Under the pieces are notes generated by a model. The model did no database searches. It was not told the origin of the DNA and saw only the letters and a list, made by a program, of their open reading frames with translations. Positions 10,178 to 48,412 of a stretch of 48,412 nucleotides of DNA are shown piece by piece; within the stretch, counting starts at the first letter, position 1; the number at the start of each line of letters is the position of its first letter. Location: positions 1 through 48,412 of the forward strand of contig JAGVKG010000063.1 of the NCBI GenBank assembly GCA_020050685.1, read 5' to 3'. A program made the translations under genes and the position numbers. Source of the DNA: Candidatus Obscuribacterales bacterium (GTDB lineage: Bacteria; Cyanobacteriota; Vampirovibrionia; Obscuribacterales; Obscuribacteraceae).

Positions 10178-10206
10178 TTGGATAAACGCATCGTTTGTTT
10201 TATGAT
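10178..10206 (+). promoter_or_regulatory. Sigma-70-type promoter of pilin gene 1
   Basis: TTGGAT (10178-10183), a 17-nt spacer and TATGAT (10201-10206), about 45 nt upstream of the chosen ATG at 10252. The hexamers are close to consensus and the spacing is ideal for a housekeeping-type sigma factor. Confidence 0.65.
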
Positions 10207-10238
10207 ACAGGCGGTTTGGAAGAACGAGTCAATAATAT

Positions 10239-10244
10239 GGAGGA
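10239..10244 (+). promoter_or_regulatory. Shine-Dalgarno site deciding the pilin 1 start
   Basis: GGAGGA lies 7 nt before ATG 10252. An upstream in-frame ATG at 10237 overlaps this site and has no ribosome-binding site of its own, so 10252 is preferred. Confidence 0.7.
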
Positions 10245-10251
10245 CGCGGCA

Positions 10252-10785
10252 ATGATAAATAAGATGTTGAAGTCGAGAAAGCAGAAAGGCTTCACACTGG
10301 TTGAACTCTTGGTTGTTGTGGTTATTATTGGAATCTTGGCAGCTATTGCTCTGCCAAATTTCATATCTGCTCAAAGTAAAGCCAAGGAATCATCAGTGAA
10401 AGGCAATATGCGTACATCGCAAATTGCGGCTGAATCGTATGCTACAGATTACGGCGGTGCCTATCCTGCTACCGTAGGAGCAGCATATGAAAGCTATTTC
10501 CCAGGTGGTGGTAACGATGGAGCGACAGCAGGCAATCCTCTGACCAATCCGTTCACCAACAAAACAGGATTCCCACAAGCTGGTTCCGCTATGGCACCAA
10601 CAGATATCGTGACCAACAGAACAAAATCTGGTGTTGCGATAACTGGCGGAGATTCCGGTATCCAGTACAGCATTATCAACAGTGGTTCGACACAAGTTGG
10701 TTATGCCATCATGGGAGCAAAAGCCGATGGAACTGGTGTGTCTAGCACATCACCAAGTACAACATTGGTACTCTCCAACATGTAG
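10252..10785 (+). CDS. Type IV pilin/pseudopilin, copy 1
   Basis: A 177-residue prepilin, the structural subunit of a type IV pilus or related pseudopilus. A short basic leader (MINKMLKSRKQKG) is followed by the prepilin peptidase site G|FTLVELLVVVVIIGILAAIALPNF, including the Glu at mature position 5. The globular domain holds AESYATDYGG and a Gly/Ser/Thr-rich C-terminal half with DSGIQYS and GYAIMGAKADGTG. It has its own promoter (10178-10206) and terminator (10823-10848). The next gene is a clear paralogue. Its processing enzyme is probably the prepilin peptidase encoded at 43380. Whether it is the major pilin or a minor one cannot be settled here. Confidence 0.9.
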   Translation: MINKMLKSRKQKGFTLVELLVVVVIIGILAAIALPNFISAQSKAKESSVKGNMRTSQIAAESYATDYGGAYPATVGAAYESYFPGGGNDGATAGNPLTNPFTNKTGFPQAGSAMAPTDIVTNRTKSGVAITGGDSGIQYSIINSGSTQVGYAIMGAKADGTGVSSTSPSTTLVLSNM

Positions 10786-11045: not shown

Positions 11046-11699
11046 ATGGGCGGGCGACTATACTCTGAAGAGTTTTTCAACAAGCCAAAGCAAGACCATA
11101 GGGTGCATAGCTTTGGGTATTGTTTTGTGTACACCAAGCGCGCCAAAAAAAATGCCAATCACTTTACCAGTTCTAATAGAAAGTACAAGACAAATCTTGG
11201 ATTTACACTAGTTGAACTTTTGGTTGTGGTGCTTGTGATTGGGGTTCTGGCAGCAATTGCTTTGCCAAACTTCATTGCTGCTCAACAGAAGGCTAGGGAA
11301 ACGGCTGTAAGAGGAAACATGCGTACTGCCCAAGTGGCAGCCGAATCGTATGCTACAGATTATGGCGGCCTTTACCCGAGTAGCGTGGATGCGGCATACG
11401 AAAGCTATTTTCCTGGTGGTGGCTCAGATGGTGCGACTGCCGGCAACCCACTGGTTAATCCCTTTAACAGCAAGACAGGTTTCCCCAATACCGGATCAGC
11501 CATGACTTCATCGGACATCACTACCATTCGTGGCTCATCTGGCAGCGCGGTTTCCGGTGGGGATTCAGGTGTTCAATATAGTAGCGTTACAGGCGGTGCT
11601 ACGTCCGGCTATGCCATCTTGGGAGCCAAGGCTGATGGTACTGCTGTTTCCGGTACCAACGTAACCAATACTCTTGTTCTTTCAAACTTTGGCAGTTAA
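11046..11699 (+). CDS. Type IV pilin/pseudopilin, copy 2
   Basis: A paralogue of the preceding pilin: GFTLVELLVVVLVIGVLAAI, then AESYATDYGG, ESYFPGGGSDGATAGNP, DSGVQYS and GYAILGAKADGTA align along the whole mature domain. From ATG 11046 it has 217 residues with an unusually long leader of about 51 residues before the cleavage glycine. In-frame GTG codons further in would give a shorter leader, but none has a clear ribosome-binding site; an AAGGA lies about 14 nt before ATG 11046. The different leader and separate promoter suggest independent expression from copy 1. Confidence 0.85.
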   Translation: MGGRLYSEEFFNKPKQDHRVHSFGYCFVYTKRAKKNANHFTSSNRKYKTNLGFTLVELLVVVLVIGVLAAIALPNFIAAQQKARETAVRGNMRTAQVAAESYATDYGGLYPSSVDAAYESYFPGGGSDGATAGNPLVNPFNSKTGFPNTGSAMTSSDITTIRGSSGSAVSGGDSGVQYSSVTGGATSGYAILGAKADGTAVSGTNVTNTLVLSNFGS

Positions 11700-11821
11700 G
11701 CAAGCTTTGAATGGTTGCTTCGTGCCTCATATATGGCATCATTGATGTTTGGCTGTGAGCTAGCTAGATAGGGTGACATCATTTTGAGTGATAGAAAACT
11801 TGATACTGAGGAGCAAAACAG

Positions 11822-12577
11822 GTGGTGCCCGTCATAAGAAAGCAAACGATGTGGCAGATTTTTGCGCTTTTGGCTTTGGCTCTCATAATTCAGGCAAGTC
11901 ATGCTCGACTGATTGCTAAGCTCGGCATTAAGCAAGCCGAACCAACCCTCGTGGCGCTGCCAAACAAGGAAGTGGCCAGGCTTATGAGCCTCGGCAATCA
12001 GCAATTTGTTGCTGATTGTTACTGGCTTTCTTTTATCCAGTACCTGGGAGATGTAAAAGTTCGGCGCCTCGATCATTACCGTTCTTGTTACAACTTTTTG
12101 GATTTAATTACTTATTTGGACCCCCATTTTGTGCAGCCGTATTGGTTTGCGGCATTTGCGGTAGGAGCCGATCAAGGACGTCCGGATCTGGCAGCCAAAT
12201 TGATTAATCGCGGGCTGGCTTTTAATCAAAACAATTGGTATTTGCCTTGGATTGCCGGATTTAATCAGTATTTGTTTGCTCATGATGATAAGGCGGCAGC
12301 AAATTTTTACCGCATGGCTGCAAAGTATCCTGATGCGCCAGAGTGGCTGGAGCGACAAGCCGTAGTTCTCGAATCTAAAGTGCCAACTCTAATCAAAGAA
12401 ATTCGCACCTGGGGACTGATTTATGTAAACTCCAAAGATCCTATGGTGAAAGAAGCAGCCCGTAAACGTTTAGTTTCGCTCTGGCTTACCGTCTTTCATC
12501 AGGCACCGAATTTGCAAGTGAAGCGCGGTGCTGCCGATATGCTCAAAGGTTTGGGAGTGATTGTTGACGTAAAATAA
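11822..12577 (+). CDS. Membrane-anchored TPR-like protein
   Basis: A 251-residue protein with one N-terminal hydrophobic segment (about residues 10-26) followed by helical TPR-like repeats, for example LITYLDPHFVQPYWFAAFA and AAKLINRGLAFNQNNWYLPW. GAGGAG lies 8 nt before a GTG GTG pair at 11822. No catalytic motif is visible. It lies 53 nt upstream of the large membrane/spermidine-synthase-like/TPR gene and probably forms an operon with it, suggesting a shared envelope role. Confidence 0.75.
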   Translation: MVPVIRKQTMWQIFALLALALIIQASHARLIAKLGIKQAEPTLVALPNKEVARLMSLGNQQFVADCYWLSFIQYLGDVKVRRLDHYRSCYNFLDLITYLDPHFVQPYWFAAFAVGADQGRPDLAAKLINRGLAFNQNNWYLPWIAGFNQYLFAHDDKAAANFYRMAAKYPDAPEWLERQAVVLESKVPTLIKEIRTWGLIYVNSKDPMVKEAARKRLVSLWLTVFHQAPNLQVKRGAADMLKGLGVIVDVK

Positions 12578-12630
12578 GAACGACTGCCGAAAACTGATAA
12601 CAGAAGTTATATAAAGGACAAAAGCAACTC

Positions 12631-15600
12631 ATGGATAAAAATCCAAAGCGCAAAGGGAAAATCGGTCAGAATCCCAAAACCGCTTTGCCTCTTGGTACTA
12701 AATCTCTAACAGCTTTTGTTTTTGTCGCACTTTTGTTTTTGGCCTCGGGATTCTCCAGCTTGATTTATCAAGTGGTCTGGACGAGATTCCTTGTTTTGGT
12801 TTTTGGCTCGACAACCTTTGCCACATCAACGGTGTTGTCGGTCTTTATGGGCGGCTTGGCGCTGGGCTCTTTTGTTGCCGGCAAAATGGTGGACAAAATC
12901 AAACGCCCATTTTTGCTCTACGGAATTTTGGAAGGCATAATTGGAATTTGGGCCTTAGTTGTCCCTTTTCTTTTTGAGGCAGCCGTACCGCTATATAAAG
13001 TAATTTGGCTCAATTTCCATTTGGACCTTTTGTCTTTTGGTTTATTGCGTTTTATTGTTGCTTGTGCAATTTTGATTTTGCCGACCACTTGCATGGGTGC
13101 GACGTTACCGCTTCTGGCCAAATTTGTTACCACTAGTTTGAAATTTGTCGGCGAACGTGTTGGTACCTTGTATGCGACCAACACTTTGGGAGCCGTGTTT
13201 GGCGCGGGCTTGGCTGGTTTTATTCTTTTGCCGGTGTTTGGTTTGTATGTGACGACTATACTGGCCGCTTTGATCAATTTGGCATTATTGGCCGCAGTAG
13301 TTATCGGTGGACCAAAAATTGAACAAAAGTTTGAAAACAAGGCGCAAGAAAAAGGGCAAACCGATAAAGAATACGAGACAGCTGGCGGGATGTCTTCAGT
13401 TAGCAAAGTCTTGCTTGTAGTGACGGCCTGTTTTGCCACATCCGGGGCTGCGGCTATGGTCTATGAAGTAGCATGGACCCGTACGCTTTTAATGGTGATA
13501 GGATCGTCCACCTTTGCCTTTAGTGTCATGCTCGTGACATTCTTGACAGGAATTTTTTGTGGCAGTTATCTTTGTGCCCGCGTTGTGGACAAAGCAAAAG
13601 AGCCATTGATTTGGTTTGCCGTGTTGGAATTTTTGATTTGTCTTTTGAGTTTTGTTTCTATGCACCACTTCAATTATTTGCCTTGGTTCAACTTGGTGGC
13701 AAATGCGCAAGTGCCGAAAGACCCAAATATTGCTTTGATAATTCGCTTTTTATTGGCAGGCAGTTGTTTGTTGCCGCTGACAGTTTGCTTGGGGGCAATA
13801 TTTCCGATTGTGGTCAAGACTTGCGCGAGAGATCTGGCCTTAATTGGCCGCTCAGTCGGTAACTTGTATTCGGCAAATACACTGGGGGCAATCGTCGGTT
13901 CGTTTCTGGCTGGATTTGTTTTGGTGCCGGCAATGGGAGTGGAGAAGACACTTTTGGTGGCAGCGGCCGTCAATTTGGTAATTGGCGTTGTCTTGCTTGC
14001 CATAACCCCTAACATCAAGGTTTCCATCAAAGCACTATCTGTGGTGGCAACCTGTGTGGTGGCAGCTTGGCTTTGTTTTGGTCCAGGAATCTGGGACAAA
14101 TTGATCTTGTTAAACGCGCAAGCCGCTCGGCGTAATCTCTCGACAATGCCACTTTTCTTCAATTCTTTTGAGCAATGGCGCAATGCCCAACATGACACGG
14201 ATAGATTATTGTTCTGGCAAGACGGATTATCATCGACAGTCGGTGTTCGGCAACAAAAGTTCTCCGGCTTCCGTTCCTTGGTGACAAACGGTCACGTCGA
14301 TGCCTCCGATGCCGGTGACATGACGACACAAATTCTCCTTTCTGCTTATCCGCTTTTGTGGAAACCGGAAGCGCAAGATGTTTGTGTGATTGGTTGGGGC
14401 TCCGGGGTAACAATTGGCGTGGCTGGCACGCTCAAGCCCAAAGAAATTGTGGCTGTAGAACTTGAACCGGCAGTTATTGAGGCTGGTAAGTTTTTCCATC
14501 ATGTTAATCATCACCCAGATGAGAATCCCATTGTCAAAAAGGAAATTAACGATGGTCGTAATTTCTTATTGGTCACGGATAAGAAATTCGATGTGATTAT
14601 TTCTGAGCCATCCAATCCCTGGCAAGCCGGAGTTTGCAATCTTTTCACCAAGGAATATTTTGAAATTTGTCACCGAGCACTCAAGCCAGGCGGTGTATTT
14701 TCTTTGTGGCTTCAGACACTGGAAATTTCACCGGAAAATGTACGCGGCATATTGGCTTCATTGCATGACGTTTTCCCCTATGTCATGGTCATGCGCGCAG
14801 ACATGGGTGATGTAACAGTTTTGGCATCAGATCAAAACTTGAAATTTGATTTGGCAAAATCTGCCAAGCTTTTCAAAAACGAGGAATTCCTCAGCGATTT
14901 GAAGCGAGTCAAAATAGATACACCGGAAAAGGTTATGGCCAGAATTGCCATGGCTCCCGACGGTATTGAGGGGCTAATCGGCAATTCACCACGTAACGTT
15001 GATGACACTAACCGCTTGGAATACTCAGTTGGTAAAACATATGAGCATAGTTTTTATCCGGAAGAAAACATCAAATTGCTCAAGGAAAATGTCGGGCATC
15101 CGGCAGAATATATCGAATTTGCTGAGACAGATGCAAAAGCCCGATCCGAACAATTGGCCAGTGTGGCTAAGGAAGCCTTGAGTGATAGAAGTTTGGGACC
15201 GGCAAGTGTCTGGACAGACAAAGCCCTAGCCTTGGTACCACAACCAAACACTCCTAAGGAAGTGTTGAGAGTGGCAGGCATAGTCAAATATGAGCAAGGC
15301 AAGAAGGACGAAGCTTATAAATTCTGGGAAAGAGCAATTGAACTTTATCCGAATGACAAAGACACTCTGATGACCCGAGGTCTGACAGCCTTGCAAAATG
15401 GTGATACCGATGCGGCACGCGCGGATTTTATGAGAGTGATCAAAATTGAGCCAGGCAATTTGGATGCCCGCTTTGATATGGCTTGTACATTTTCCAGTCT
15501 TTATTGCCATGTTCCTGTTGGAGGTGGCGGCAAGAACGAATTGTTCCCTAAAGCATACGCCGACTCAGTACTTAAATATGCGGGCGACTTGACCAAGAAT

Positions 15601-42579: not shown

Positions 42580-43383
42580 ATGTTTTCTGGTCTTGGTGCA
42601 ATTGCACTGAATACATTTCGCGAAACCGTGCGTGATCGTATTTTGTATGCATTTGTTCTTTTTGCCTTTCTTTTTACGCTGGCAGGAATAATTTTGGGCA
42701 GTCTTTCGATTGGTCAAAACGAACGCATCTTGCAAGATATGGGTTTGGCAGTAATTTCCATGATTGGTGGCATTATTGCCATATTTCTCGGCACAAACCT
42801 TGTGTATAAAGAAATAGACAGACGCACCATTTACCTCATATTGACAAAGCCAATTGCTCGCTGGCAATTTGTCCTGGGGAAATATTTAGGACTTTCATTT
42901 TGTATTTTTGTGGTTACAGGTCTGATGGGTATTTTTCTCGTTGGACTTTTGGCTGTTTTTGGCGCTGAAGTGAAAGCGCTTGTCTTGGTTGCTCAAGCTA
43001 TTGGCTTGATTTATTTGGAGCTGCTTTTTGTCATTGCCGTGGCCACCTTTTTCTCCACCTTTGCCACACCACTAATGAGTGTTTTGTTTACTTTGGCAAT
43101 TTGGCTGATTGGTCATATGAGTCAGGCATTGCTTGAGCTTTCCAAGCTTTCGCAAGCAAATACATCCGACGCCGCATGTATCCCCTCGTGCACCAAACTT
43201 GGTCAGGTAATGTATTGGATTGTGCCGGATTTGGCCAAGTTGACACAGGTACGTTATGAACTAATTTCGCTTCGACCGGTAGATTGCGAAATCCTCTTTT
43301 ATCTAATTACCTATATACTGGCGTATATTATTTTTCTTTTGCTGTTGTCGACTTTGGTAACTGAACAAAGAGAGTTTTCTTGA
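42580..43383 (+). CDS. ABC-2 type exporter permease
   Basis: A 267-residue membrane protein with six hydrophobic segments: an N-terminal amphipathic TFRETVRDRILYAFVLFAFL, EIDRRTIYLILTKPI after the second segment (a hallmark of ABC-2 permeases), then four further segments ending in LAYIIFLLLLSTLV. It forms the membrane half of an exporter with the preceding ATPase. The cargo is unknown. A TTGA or two-base junction joins it to the prepilin peptidase gene, so the exporter is in one operon with the pilus genes. Confidence 0.88.
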   Translation: MFSGLGAIALNTFRETVRDRILYAFVLFAFLFTLAGIILGSLSIGQNERILQDMGLAVISMIGGIIAIFLGTNLVYKEIDRRTIYLILTKPIARWQFVLGKYLGLSFCIFVVTGLMGIFLVGLLAVFGAEVKALVLVAQAIGLIYLELLFVIAVATFFSTFATPLMSVLFTLAIWLIGHMSQALLELSKLSQANTSDAACIPSCTKLGQVMYWIVPDLAKLTQVRYELISLRPVDCEILFYLITYILAYIIFLLLLSTLVTEQREFS

Positions 43384-44381
43384 GCATGCCACCACTTCCA
43401 GATCTGACAATATACGTTTTGGTATTTGTGGTTGGAGCAGTAGTCGGCAGCTTTTTAAATGTATTGGCTCTTAGAACTTTAGAGGGGCGTTCTGTTATTT
43501 GGCCGCCATCTTCCTGCCCGGCTTGCGGAAAGCGCATCGCCTTTCAAGACAATATTCCAATCCTTTCCTTTTTCCTTTTGCGCGGGAAGTGTCGCGCTTG
43601 CCAAGCGGTAATTTCTTGGCAATACCCTTTGGTAGAGCTGGTGACGGCAATTTTGGCCGTGGTTTTATTCTTTCGCTTTGGGCTAAGTTGGGAATTTGCC
43701 GGTATGTGCATACTGGGCTCTTGTCTAATTGCAGTTACAGTGACGGATTTACGCGAAAAACTAATTCCGCATGATATCACCTATCCGACAATCGTTTTGG
43801 GGTTGATTTATTCTGCTTTTGTCCGCAATGATTTAATGGGCGCTTTGGCTGGTATTGGTGCAAGCTATTTGATTTTTGATTTCTTAGCGCACTATGGCTT
43901 AGTAATTTACCAAAAGCTCAAACCGGAATCCGTTGGTGAAGACATCGACGTTATGGGTGGTGGCGATGCAGTATTATCGGCGGTGATTGCCGCTTGGCTG
44001 GGTTGGCAAAGATTGGTTTTGGCCTTGGCTGTCGGTTTTCTGATTGGCACCATTATCGGCATGATTCTCTTGGTTAGAGAAGTGATGCAAGCGGGGCTTT
44101 TGGCTGATGCGCTGAAGAAGGCCGTGATTGGTGCGGCAGGTGGTGCTGTCCTCATGGCAGTCACGGCACTTGTGATTAACCTGGCAACCGGCCCATTAAA
44201 CGTCAACATTTCCTGGCTGGTTTTTTCCGGCTTGGGTGCTGTCTGCGGGGGGCTTCTAGGGTTTGTCCTAGTTGGCACTCAGGTCTCCAAACCTTTTCCC
44301 TTCGGCCCGGCTCTTGCCTTAGGCGCCCTAGTGGCAATTTTTATAGATCCTGTTGCTACCTTCTTATCTGGTGGGGCATAA
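43380..44381 (+). CDS. pilD: Prepilin peptidase (leader peptidase/N-methyltransferase)
   Basis: An inner-membrane aspartyl protease that removes leaders from type IV prepilins and N-methylates the new N-terminus. The cytosolic zinc module has two CxxC pairs (SSCPACGKR and GKCRACQAV); the protease aspartates are in VTVTDLREKLIPHD and MGGGDAVLS. About nine hydrophobic segments give 333 residues, longer than the usual 230-290 owing to extra C-terminal segments. Start: TTG 43380 overlaps the permease stop (TTGA) with GAGAG 5 nt upstream; ATG 43386 is a close alternative. It probably processes the pilins at 10252 and 11046. Confidence 0.93.
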   Translation: MSMPPLPDLTIYVLVFVVGAVVGSFLNVLALRTLEGRSVIWPPSSCPACGKRIAFQDNIPILSFFLLRGKCRACQAVISWQYPLVELVTAILAVVLFFRFGLSWEFAGMCILGSCLIAVTVTDLREKLIPHDITYPTIVLGLIYSAFVRNDLMGALAGIGASYLIFDFLAHYGLVIYQKLKPESVGEDIDVMGGGDAVLSAVIAAWLGWQRLVLALAVGFLIGTIIGMILLVREVMQAGLLADALKKAVIGAAGGAVLMAVTALVINLATGPLNVNISWLVFSGLGAVCGGLLGFVLVGTQVSKPFPFGPALALGALVAIFIDPVATFLSGGA

Positions 44382-44526: not shown

Positions 44527-46302
44527 ATGTTCTCCTTCGGTAAAAAAGCTGGTCCCAGTCTTGGTCTCGACATTAATAGTCAGTCGATCAACCTGATTCA
44601 ACTGGAAAAGACAAAGCGAGGAATGGAAGTCGTTGGCTTTGCTTCCATGCCTTCCGTTGCTAGTGCGGTGAAGGAAGGATTGATTATTGATCCGGAAACG
44701 ATTGGCCAGCAAGTTGCCGATTTGTTTGCCGAACTAGGATCGAAGATCCCTAAGAACCGTTGTTTTGTGAATGTGGCAGTACCTGGGCAATCGGTAATTA
44801 TCCGCCTCTTGCCCGTGCCAACTGGTATGCCGGAAGATGAACTGGCTGACGTGGTGCGGCAAGAGGCAATCAACCACATTCCCTTTCCCTTGGAAGAAGC
44901 GAACTTGGATTGGGCAGTGATGCCGGCAACCGAGCGCACCGAACCTGATGGTGTTGTGCGTGTTGATGTGATTTTGGCGGCTATGCAAAAGTCTTTAGTC
45001 GATTCCTACTGGCGTGTGGCTGAAGTGGCCGGATGCCGTTTGGGTTCCATTTCCATTTCTTCTTTAGCGGCAATAAAAGCATTGGCGCTGGCTGGTTATT
45101 TTTTGCAGGATGACAAATTGACTATGTCTGTCAACTTGCGCCAAGAAGGCACAGATATTTCTGTGGTGAAAAATGGCATGCCGTTATTCAGCCGCTCTGT
45201 GGTGCTCGGCATCGATTCACTTTCTGAATCGATTTCGCGATCACTCGACATATCGATTGACGAATCGCGCGAACTAATTCCGCAAGCACCAATTTTGGGA
45301 GTGAGCTTGGCGGATCAAAAACTCTTGCAAGTGGCACAAATTGCCCGCACCGTACTTGGTGACATTACAGATGAAGTTGGCCGCTCACTAGATTTCTATC
45401 GCTCGCAAGTTGAAGAAGTGAACATCAGTCAAATAGTGCTTTCTGGCATTGGTTGCGAAGTGCCGACGGTTGATCGGTTTTTCCAAAACCGCCTGAACAT
45501 CGATACCGTAGTTGGTGATTCCTTCCGGGAATTTATTGACTCCACGCCTTTGATGGAAGCCAGAAAGACTAGTTGCACAACAGCCGTTGGTTCTGCAGCA
45601 GAAGCAACTTGGTTGCCGATCGCCACTGTAGATGTAGATTTGAATCGAGAAGGTCCATCAGGAGCCGCCTTCGAAGGTGGCGAGGGTGGTCTTCCTGCTA
45701 TTGAAGTTGATACTCCTTGGTTTAAACCAGCCCTAATTGTTGGTGTAGTTGCCCTTGTTGCCGTCCTTGGTGTCTGGGTTTATATTTCTCAGGTTGATAT
45801 TCCCAGGAAGCAAGCAGAGATTCAGCAGTTAGAAGCAGACAATCAAATTGCCCAAAGCAAGTTGAAAAACCTGCCGCGCTTGATCGAAGAAAGAGATGGC
45901 TTGTTGAGAAAGAAACATGTTCTGCAAGGGATCGTTAATCACTTGAGTCCATGGCCGCAAGTCTTGTCTGCTGTAAGCGACAGCTGCCCGGATGGGGTGC
46001 AAATCAAGAAATTAGAAGTGTCTCCGGCTAAAATTACGGTCACCGGCACCTCTACCGATTTTGCTAAGATATCGCACTTTGCCATCAACCTTAACGGCAC
46101 CAATTTGGCAACATCAACGAATATTGAAATGGCCAAACGTGAACAAACCGATCCGAGAATTATTGACTTTGAATTGAATTCACTGATCAATCCACAAGCT
46201 GCCAGCCAAAGCCCAGCCAATCTAAACCCGGCTCAGCCACAAGTAAGCGCACGGCCTGCAGCAATACCTGGAAAGACTGCCGGATTAGCGCCGAGCAATT
46301 GA
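44527..46302 (+). CDS. Fused PilM-PilN type IV pilus assembly protein
   Basis: A 591-residue fusion of two normally separate proteins. Residues 1 to about 365 are PilM, an actin-like cytosolic ATP-binding protein: MFSFGKKAGPSLGLDINSQS, VNVAVPGQSVIIRLL, QEAINHIPFPLEEANLDW, SRSVVLGIDSLSESI and IVLSGIGCEVP. Residues about 370-580 are PilN: a short VDVDLNREGP segment resembling the PilM-binding motif of PilN, a membrane helix at about 401-422, a coiled coil to about 475, and a ferredoxin-like end. It therefore puts PilM and the PilN periplasmic part in one chain across the inner membrane. The C-terminal 40 residues are Ala/Pro/Gln-rich. pilO follows by 25 nt. Confidence 0.9.
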   Translation: MFSFGKKAGPSLGLDINSQSINLIQLEKTKRGMEVVGFASMPSVASAVKEGLIIDPETIGQQVADLFAELGSKIPKNRCFVNVAVPGQSVIIRLLPVPTGMPEDELADVVRQEAINHIPFPLEEANLDWAVMPATERTEPDGVVRVDVILAAMQKSLVDSYWRVAEVAGCRLGSISISSLAAIKALALAGYFLQDDKLTMSVNLRQEGTDISVVKNGMPLFSRSVVLGIDSLSESISRSLDISIDESRELIPQAPILGVSLADQKLLQVAQIARTVLGDITDEVGRSLDFYRSQVEEVNISQIVLSGIGCEVPTVDRFFQNRLNIDTVVGDSFREFIDSTPLMEARKTSCTTAVGSAAEATWLPIATVDVDLNREGPSGAAFEGGEGGLPAIEVDTPWFKPALIVGVVALVAVLGVWVYISQVDIPRKQAEIQQLEADNQIAQSKLKNLPRLIEERDGLLRKKHVLQGIVNHLSPWPQVLSAVSDSCPDGVQIKKLEVSPAKITVTGTSTDFAKISHFAINLNGTNLATSTNIEMAKREQTDPRIIDFELNSLINPQAASQSPANLNPAQPQVSARPAAIPGKTAGLAPSN

Positions 46303-46317
46303 GCGCCGAGCAATTGA
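46288..46317 (+). repeat. 15-bp tandem duplication at the pilMN stop
   Basis: GCGCCGAGCAATTGA occurs twice without a gap (46288-46302 and 46303-46317). The first copy encodes the last four residues and stop of pilMN; the second repeats them in frame after the stop, then GAGAGGAAAGAG leads to pilO. Confidence 0.9.
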
Positions 46318-46327
46318 GAGGAAAGAG

Positions 46328-47032
46328 ATGAGCTTAAGAGACAAAATTTTAGTTTGCTTGGTGCCATTCTTATTGGCGGCTATTCTCTGGTTTGGTTTGG
46401 CTAGTCAGGCATATGTAGACTGGCAAGAAAAAGACAAACAAATTGAAGAGAAGAATCAAGAGCAAACCCAATTGAAAACCAAGCTGGCCAACTTAGCCAG
46501 AGTGGATAAGGAAAGAGCAGCGCTGAATCTGGATATCGAAGCTCTTCGATCTGCTGTTCCGAAAAGTCCGGACTTGGATATTTTGCTGATTGATTTGGAA
46601 AAAATGTGTTTGGATTCAAGCATGGATTTAGTGTCGGTAGATAAGCCGGATGCTAAGTCTTTGTCAGATACTCAAGCGCAAGACGCGGAAGCAAAGGAAC
46701 TGGCAAGTGCATCTGGCAAGCTGAGTGTTGGTGCAAAAAGCAAGGATGTTGCTTTGGGTGCAAAGGCAGACAAATCAAAAACGCCAGGCGGAAAGAATGA
46801 AGTTAAGAGTGCGGAAGAAGAAGCCGGGCTCAACAAACAAGTCTTGAGTGTAACCGTGATTGGTGATTATCCCTCCTTGATTGAATTGATGAAGAAGTTG
46901 CAAGGCTATGAAAGAGTGACCGGAATAGGAAAGATCACCATCGGCTTGCCTGATGCAAAGGACAAAGGAAAAGGAGATCCGTCCAAGCAGCTAAAAATTA
47001 GTTTTCTCCTAACGGCGTATTATCTTCCGTAG
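46328..47032 (+). CDS. pilO: Type IV pilus assembly protein PilO
   Basis: An inner-membrane alignment-complex protein that pairs with PilN. The N-terminal membrane helix (residues about 7-27), a coiled coil from about 30 to 75 (EEKNQEQTQLKTKLANLARV) and a C-terminal ferredoxin-like domain (VLSVTVIGDYPSLIELMKKL, ITIGLPDAKDKGKGD) follow the PilO order. A Lys/Ala-rich charged linker of about 60 residues between them (residues about 115-165) is an extra. The 234-residue length is usual. GAGGAAAG precedes the ATG. The pilP-like gene starts 8 nt after the stop. Confidence 0.9.
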   Translation: MSLRDKILVCLVPFLLAAILWFGLASQAYVDWQEKDKQIEEKNQEQTQLKTKLANLARVDKERAALNLDIEALRSAVPKSPDLDILLIDLEKMCLDSSMDLVSVDKPDAKSLSDTQAQDAEAKELASASGKLSVGAKSKDVALGAKADKSKTPGGKNEVKSAEEEAGLNKQVLSVTVIGDYPSLIELMKKLQGYERVTGIGKITIGLPDAKDKGKGDPSKQLKISFLLTAYYLP

Positions 47033-47040
47033 AGGCATGT

Positions 47041-48249
47041 ATGAACGATTCACAACGAACGAGATTGATGCTTTTGTTTATGTCCGGGATTTTGTTAATC
47101 GGCGGAGGTTTGCTTTGGGTTCATACTCAAAGACAGCCAGCTGAAGATACTACCTACCAAGAGCAGCTCGCCGCGTTGCAGAAGTTGAAAAAAATCAAGA
47201 AGCATCATCCGGCAGCGGAAATGTCCCAACAAGTGTCTCCGGTCGGTCAGCCCGGGACCGCACCGCTAAATGTATCGGCTCCTGGTGAAAAGACTGCTGT
47301 TGCTAAGCTGCCAGATGCTACGCCCACTATGCCTTCTGTGCCTACTGGTACATTTACGAGTACCGCAACCAGTAGCGCGTCCAATTCGCGTGGCACAACA
47401 ACCGCTACTACTCGGACGACCGTTGCCGGAACTAAGACCACTGTTGTGACTAAGGCGACAACTGTACAAAGTGCGCTTCTGCCAAATCAAGTAGCGCAAC
47501 AGCCAGTTGTTCCGGTGCAGTCCTCAACAATGGCTCGTTTGTCCGGCAGTGCCCAGCCGATGAAACAAGGTGTCGCGCCAGTGCAAAATGTACCGTTTGG
47601 CAGCAAGCTCAGTGCGCAACAAAATATTCAACAGTCCGGTGGGCAGGCTGCGGCCCCTCAAGCAGTTGCTCCGCAACCTAACAAGAATGTTGCCGCTACA
47701 AATCCGCAGCAAGCGCAAATTGCTGCCCGTGAGAATGCCGGACGACAGGATCCGTTTAAGTACGTTTCCGGGTACAAACCATTTCCACGCGCCTCGAAAG
47801 AACAAGTCGATAGCCTGGGAGATGATACGATGTCCGGTGACGATTCGGGCGGGCCTAAATTTCAGAATTTTATTCAGCATACCAAGAACAAAATTGCTCA
47901 AGCGTCTAAAAAACAAAACATGCTTGTGCCACCACCCCCACCCATGGGAGAAAGTCTGGCACCATCATCAAGTGGTTATTCATCAGGATTGCCTATTGAC
48001 GAGTTGCCTGCTCCACCCACCAGACCTTCGATTGCCGATAAGATGAAGTTGGTCGGTGTGATTGGTGACCGAGCCATATTCAAATTTTCTGATAACAAAT
48101 CACGCATGGACAATAAATGGCCCAAGACAATTACCTTGGCGCCTGGTCAAAAATTTGAATCAGTAAGCTTAGTGAATGTAGCCGACACGTCTGTCACTCT
48201 CGACGAAGACGGCGAACGCTCCGTGAAGAGTTTGGATCCTATCAAATAA
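47041..48249 (+). CDS. PilP-like type IV pilus assembly lipoprotein analogue
   Basis: A 402-residue protein with one N-terminal membrane helix (residues about 8-25), a long low-complexity linker (residues about 60-325, rich in Thr, Ala, Gln and Pro, with TTTATTRTTVAGTKTTVVTK), a GRQDPF patch near residue 236 like that linking PilP to the complex, and a C-terminal beta domain from about 330 (MKLVGVIGDRAIFKF, LAPGQKFESVSLVNVADTSV) as in PilP, which connects PilN/PilO to the PilQ secretin. It lacks a lipobox, so it differs from classical PilP. The name rests on order after pilO and the C-terminal pattern. Confidence 0.7.
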   Translation: MNDSQRTRLMLLFMSGILLIGGGLLWVHTQRQPAEDTTYQEQLAALQKLKKIKKHHPAAEMSQQVSPVGQPGTAPLNVSAPGEKTAVAKLPDATPTMPSVPTGTFTSTATSSASNSRGTTTATTRTTVAGTKTTVVTKATTVQSALLPNQVAQQPVVPVQSSTMARLSGSAQPMKQGVAPVQNVPFGSKLSAQQNIQQSGGQAAAPQAVAPQPNKNVAATNPQQAQIAARENAGRQDPFKYVSGYKPFPRASKEQVDSLGDDTMSGDDSGGPKFQNFIQHTKNKIAQASKKQNMLVPPPPPMGESLAPSSSGYSSGLPIDELPAPPTRPSIADKMKLVGVIGDRAIFKFSDNKSRMDNKWPKTITLAPGQKFESVSLVNVADTSVTLDEDGERSVKSLDPIK

Positions 48250-48391: not shown

Positions 48392-48412
48392 TTGCAAAAG
48401 ACAAAAATTGTG

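Follow-up and report, generated by a model that had tools for sequence, protein, structure and literature searches.

Does a single gene in a member of the Obscuribacterales encode both PilM and PilN of the type IV pilus, and what would such a chain mean for the inner-membrane part of the machinery? The question is raised by a stretch of DNA of 48,412 nucleotides from Candidatus Obscuribacterales bacterium (hereafter the window), which is an entire contig and ends at position 48412. An earlier reading of this DNA, made from the letters alone and called here the sequence-only reading, had proposed a natural fusion of the two proteins. The gene, the parts of its product and the genes beside it are laid out as follows.

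43380 to 44381, forward strand: pilD, prepilin peptidase (PF06750 and PF01478 above cut-off); it adjoins most fused loci with enough flanking sequence
44527 to 46302, forward strand: fused pilMN gene, 591 amino acids (single open frame; PilM and PilN families both above cut-off)
44557 to 45588, forward strand: PilM domain, residues 11-354, actin-like fold (PF11104 at 13-354, TIGR01175 at 11-336; model nearest to PilM crystal structures)
45625 to 45654, forward strand: kept PilN N-terminal motif TVDVDLNREG, residues 367-376 (conservation; gapless match to split PilN N-termini)
45658 to 45717, forward strand: variable linker, residues 378-397, partly predicted to be disordered (low conservation; pLDDT <50 at 385-393)
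45721 to 45789, forward strand: PilN transmembrane helix, residues ~399-421 (hydropathy peak at 402-420; modelled helix 399-471)
45790 to 45939, forward strand: PilN coiled-coil helix, residues ~422-471 (helix in the model)
45958 to 46179, forward strand: PilN periplasmic domain, residues 478-551 (PF05137 above gathering score)
46216 to 46299, forward strand: P/A/Q-rich disordered tail (pLDDT <50 at 564-591); the thioredoxin domain of 11 of 41 relatives sits here
46328 to 47032, forward strand: pilO (PF04350, 27.8 against 22 bits; syntenic in relatives)
47041 to 48249, forward strand: putative membrane-anchored PilP/GspC-like protein (pattern and position only)

Translation of positions 44527-46302 on the forward strand gives one uninterrupted open reading frame of 591 amino acids and a stop, and the source genome has one copy of the fused protein. 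In profile searches, the N-terminal half is identified as PilM by TIGR01175 (191.5 bits against a cut-off of 133) and by Pfam PilM_2 (PF11104, 127.1 bits against 27, residues 13-354), and the C-terminal half as PilN by PF05137 (36.6 bits against 22.8, residues 478-551). The strongest hydrophobic stretch starts at residue 402 and peaks at 402-420. In the predicted structure, one long helix runs from residue 399 to 471. Thus, the fusion itself, the PilN identity of the C-terminal half, and the membrane helix with its coiled coil are all as the sequence-only reading had described them. The fused gene's stop codon falls within a 15-base tandem duplication, gcgccgagcaattga, at window positions 46288-46317.

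The fusion is a property of the whole group. A PilN domain was found in 43 of 50 genomes of Obscuribacterales, and each of the 43 has it in the same open frame as PilM, the fused frames being 578-772 codons long; the other seven genomes gave neither a PilN match nor a full PilM match. In a set of 35 relatives, the PilN domain was recognised in every one at E<=0.01. The 43 genomes were independently assembled and span about 20 genera, and none has a stop inside the fused region (one TAA reported in the survey falls beyond the end of the fused open reading frame). The lone free-standing pilN in the family is an extra copy in genome G126 (L090:8066-9768), located beside a stand-alone PilM. Its motif, ILINLLPHR, looks proteobacterial, as do the gene order and the other genes of the contig, so this stand-alone pilM/pilN contig is likely to be contamination.

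Elsewhere the two genes are mostly encountered in split form. In the rest of the phylum, PilM frames above the cut-off have about 360-420 codons. In the Cyanobacteriia, pilM and pilN are two adjacent genes in all 30 loci that were read; a single query with the window protein matches both adjacent frames in 28 of these, and a pilN frame is present in the other two. Two relatives from outside the class (L098 and L100) share the same block of genes, comprised of an ABC transporter, a permease, one further gene, pilD, pilM, pilN and pilO; in it, pilM and pilN occupy the position of the fused gene and share 4 bases. Such an overlap could be converted into a fusion by one small indel. When the fused chain is aligned with PilM and PilN placed end to end, there are almost no inserted residues; at the junction, ...GLAIRGVQGV followed across the boundary by MKAININLLGDRP is set against ...GSAAEATWLPIATVDVDLNREGP. 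The fusion leaves PilN whole, with the start methionine alone being lost. Although a single indel at a 4-nt overlap of the kind seen in the two genomes outside the class would join the genes, the possibility that an assembly or sequencing frameshift merged them, which the sequence-only reading had itself raised, is practically excluded by the recurrence of the open frame, free of internal stops, in all 43 PilN-bearing genomes of the family.

Related arrangements occur beyond this family. Within the class, four further families (f3, f4, f5 and f7) have a PilN domain at the C-terminal end of frames of 444-569 amino acids; the PilM match in these frames is above the cut-off in f3, weak in f5 and absent by Pfam in f4 and f7. 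The split arrangement, with pilMNOPQ-like genes, is seen in one family, f9 (L088). A tree of the PilM domain that includes the other fused families is unrooted and has long branches, so that fusion may have occurred once or several times within the class. A second, divergent PilM-PilN-like fusion of about 525 amino acids occurs in the phylum outside the class (L097:6069-7649 and L106:4283-5854), and G220, one of the genomes that have it, also has split pilM and pilN.

Given that both proteins are made as one chain, a fixed 1:1 ratio of PilM to PilN follows, as had been predicted. The ratio would not be fixed if internal initiation yielded some free PilN beside the fused chain. In-frame TTG codons do exist at positions 45613 and 45640. 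However, on inspection neither is preceded by a Shine-Dalgarno-like stretch, and residue 363, which corresponds to the TTG at 45613, is not conserved in the clade; internal initiation is therefore considered extremely unlikely.

The genome as a whole contains a gene set for a retractable T4aP: PilB, PilC, PilD, PilT, a pilin, PilO and a secretin. PilT is well above its cut-off (488.6 against 319.1 bits), and a PilC-like protein is present. There are two PilB-like ATPases, which are nearest to PilB at 587 bits, below the equivalog cut-off of 675.65. The secretin is nearest to PilQ, also under the PilQ equivalog cut-off. Pilins are encoded on the same contig as the fused gene, at 10195-10785 and 11046-11699; these neighbouring genes are similar, with a class III leader and mature parts that are free of cysteine. 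On contig C21 of genome G000, two adjacent and similar PilB ATPase genes lie beside pilT and pilC (L124:9096-11177 and 11474-13543, reverse strand), and one of them has a c-di-GMP-binding MshE-type domain above the cut-off. The product of 47041-48249 has 402 amino acids, with one N-terminal hydrophobic helix and a long middle region rich in proline, threonine and glutamine. It gave no Pfam match in the profile search; eight sequences, when aligned, show a DPF(L) motif and, towards the C-terminus, a conserved pattern resembling PilP/GspC.

A chain of the same architecture is also found in type II secretion, where it is called GspL, and the small gene adjacent to the fused one matches T2SSM models weakly, under the cut-off. 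It is nevertheless very unlikely that the fused chain is a GspL-type secretion protein instead of a pilus protein. Firstly, the PilM and PilN models both score above their cut-offs, and the T2SSL/GspL model gave no match to the chain at E<=1 in the profile search. Secondly, the best fold matches are to PilM. Thirdly, the genome has PilT and pilins, and the locus is syntenic with split pilM-pilN. GspL identity was rejected on the family models and the fold, and the fused gene belongs to a T4aP module, not to a type II system.

What has become of the N-terminus of PilN, now inside the chain? Conservation was measured as mean information per position in 28 non-redundant fused relatives. The 9-mer at residues 367-375 reaches 3.69 bits, the highest of all 9-mers after residue 340; the corresponding means are 3.24 bits for PilM, 2.27 for the PilN domain and 1.95 for residues 377-396. 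V368, L372 and N373 are invariant in the 28 proteins, and L372 and N373 are also kept in two distant members of another family that were aligned. The consensus TVDLDLNKEG aligns without gaps to the N-terminus of cyanobacterial split PilN, MYSLDVNFLKDR, and to that of L100, ININLLGDRP. The start of Thermus PilN, M-I-R-L-N-L-L-P-K-N, which was translated here from a printed cloning primer (PMC6325625), has the same pattern. As in PilN proteins, the putative PilM-binding motif precedes one membrane helix. The sequence-only reading had correctly noticed a DLNREGP-like motif but regarded it as a remnant. Because the stretch is the most conserved one after residue 340, and matches split PilN N-termini without gaps, that term is wrong: judging from the alignments, the motif is a retained and selected PilN N-terminus. 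It is not identical to INLLP, since Asn is replaced by Asp and the second Leu by Asn (consensus DLDLNKE), and this departure could mean a weakened or altered binding.

Most likely, PilM still docks the PilN N-terminus, which is now tethered to it. An AlphaFold2 model built with 35 relatives has a mean pLDDT of 82.9 and a pTM of 0.63; a single-sequence prediction of residues 1-385 (mean pLDDT 32.8) was set aside. In the model, the PilM C-terminal helix occupies residues 348-357, the motif region is ordered and non-helical (blocks 361-370 and 371-380 have a mean pLDDT of 88 and 78), and residues 385-393 fall below 50. The best matches among solved structures are all PilM: 5EOU, which comes first, 5EQ6 and 2YCH. 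The first of these is P. aeruginosa PilM:PilN1-12 with ATP, and a sequence search labels its chain as PilM plus PilN, that is, a chimera. The fold matches and the predicted order of the motif fit docking, short of proof.

The contact need not be permanent, contrary to the sequence-only reading. A tether raises the local concentration of the motif, and since the segment after it (385-393) is predicted to be disordered, docking could be reversible or could take place on a neighbouring subunit. In the latter case, each motif would sit on the next PilM subunit of a ring, and the stator would be domain-swapped. The small number of residues between the PilM C-terminal helix and the motif at 367 limits its reach, which speaks for such docking in trans. 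This possibility deserves to be kept in mind, even though we lean against it, and it would be a variant compatible with the preferred explanation set out below.

The preferred explanation starts from direct observations, namely the fusion, its conservation across the clade, the conserved motif with its match to split PilN, and the T4aP gene set. It is very probable that the gene encodes a T4aP inner-membrane stator subunit that arose by the end-to-end joining of pilM and pilN. These genes would have been ancestrally adjacent or overlapping in a pilM-pilN-pilO cluster. On the cytoplasmic side, the actin-like PilM part would provide the socket for the motor ATPases, to which it is presumably coupled. 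The old N-terminal motif of PilN would dock in the PilM groove, either of its own chain or of a neighbouring subunit in a putative ring, while the helix and the coiled coil would carry the link across the membrane to the periplasmic domain that pairs with PilO. PilM and PilN would be expected at a fixed 1:1 ratio, and a soluble PilM pool would be absent, as in GspL. For P. aeruginosa, McCallum et al. (2016, cited in PMC8389850) reportedly proposed that PilN binding changes the partners of PilM. A clade that lives with fused PilM-PilN suggests that a T4aP gene set can persist without a pool of free PilM, and its natural single-chain stator should be useful in structural studies. In Thermus, the motor ATPase is stimulated only by the PilMN complex, and not by free PilM (PMC6325625). 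Given that both proteins are needed there, the fused chain would always be coupling-competent.

Some relatives carry a third part. In 11 of 41 family members, a thioredoxin domain with WCxxC is located C-terminally to PilN, giving a PilM-PilN-thioredoxin triple fusion (for instance L002:1195-3261, L003:1180-3246, L005:1183-3195, L009:1192-3288, L020:1195-3273, L050:481-2535 and L054:1471-3549), and one more relative (L012) has a version of the domain that lacks the CxxC pair. From the topology, the domain is predicted to be periplasmic. On the tree, thioredoxin-bearing members are scattered over three or more positions, one of them being the group that is sister to the window protein, and the similarity of their sequences suggests that the domain may have been gained early and lost repeatedly. 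A role in pilin disulfides was considered but found no support: pilins from genomes with the thioredoxin are not richer in cysteine (0-1 residues) than those from other genomes. A thioredoxin after PilN is not described in the open-access literature searched, and these relatives raise a new question on redox chemistry at the pilus base. The fusion is established in all the PilN-bearing genomes surveyed from a large non-photosynthetic group related to the Cyanobacteria, and the motif is still strongly conserved there. It is tempting to speculate that the motif is therefore required for more than holding the two parts together, perhaps so as to dock in trans within a swapped ring, and that an ancestral PilM-PilN-thioredoxin chain made the pilus base redox-active before the thioredoxin was lost in the lineage of the window. 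This combined scenario is, in our opinion, doubtful.

The arrangement has precedents, and the novelty implied by the sequence-only reading does not hold. A natural fusion has been published for PilMN of Clostridioides difficile (PMC6916266, which cites Melville and Craig 2013; also listed in PMC6143707 and PMC7057214), and type II secretion has an equivalent in GspL. This is a known arrangement in a new lineage, and possibly its first description in a diderm T4aP within the open-access literature searched. Compared by description, C. difficile PilMN is alike in that a single gene combines pilM and pilN and lies in a T4aP cluster that also has pilO, pilD and pilT. It differs in having a monoderm host without a secretin, for which a review proposes a different PilN motif, RD(MILF)N(FYW)FS (PMC6916266); inspection of the translated fused chain did not reveal this motif. 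GspL, which is described as the equivalent of PilM plus PilN (PMC4471445, PMC3815138), is also a single polypeptide, whose actin-like domain in the cytoplasm is joined by one membrane helix to a periplasmic domain, but the fused chain matches the PilM and PilN models and not T2SSL, and its genome has PilT and pilins. In Cyanobacteriia and other diderm T4aP systems, where PilM and PilN are two polypeptides, the domains, the gene order and the N-terminal PilN motif (MYSLDVNFLKDR) are shared. The P. aeruginosa PilM:PilN1-12 structure likewise has PilM joined to the N-terminal motif of PilN; it is apparently a construct made for crystallography and contains only residues 1-12 of PilN.
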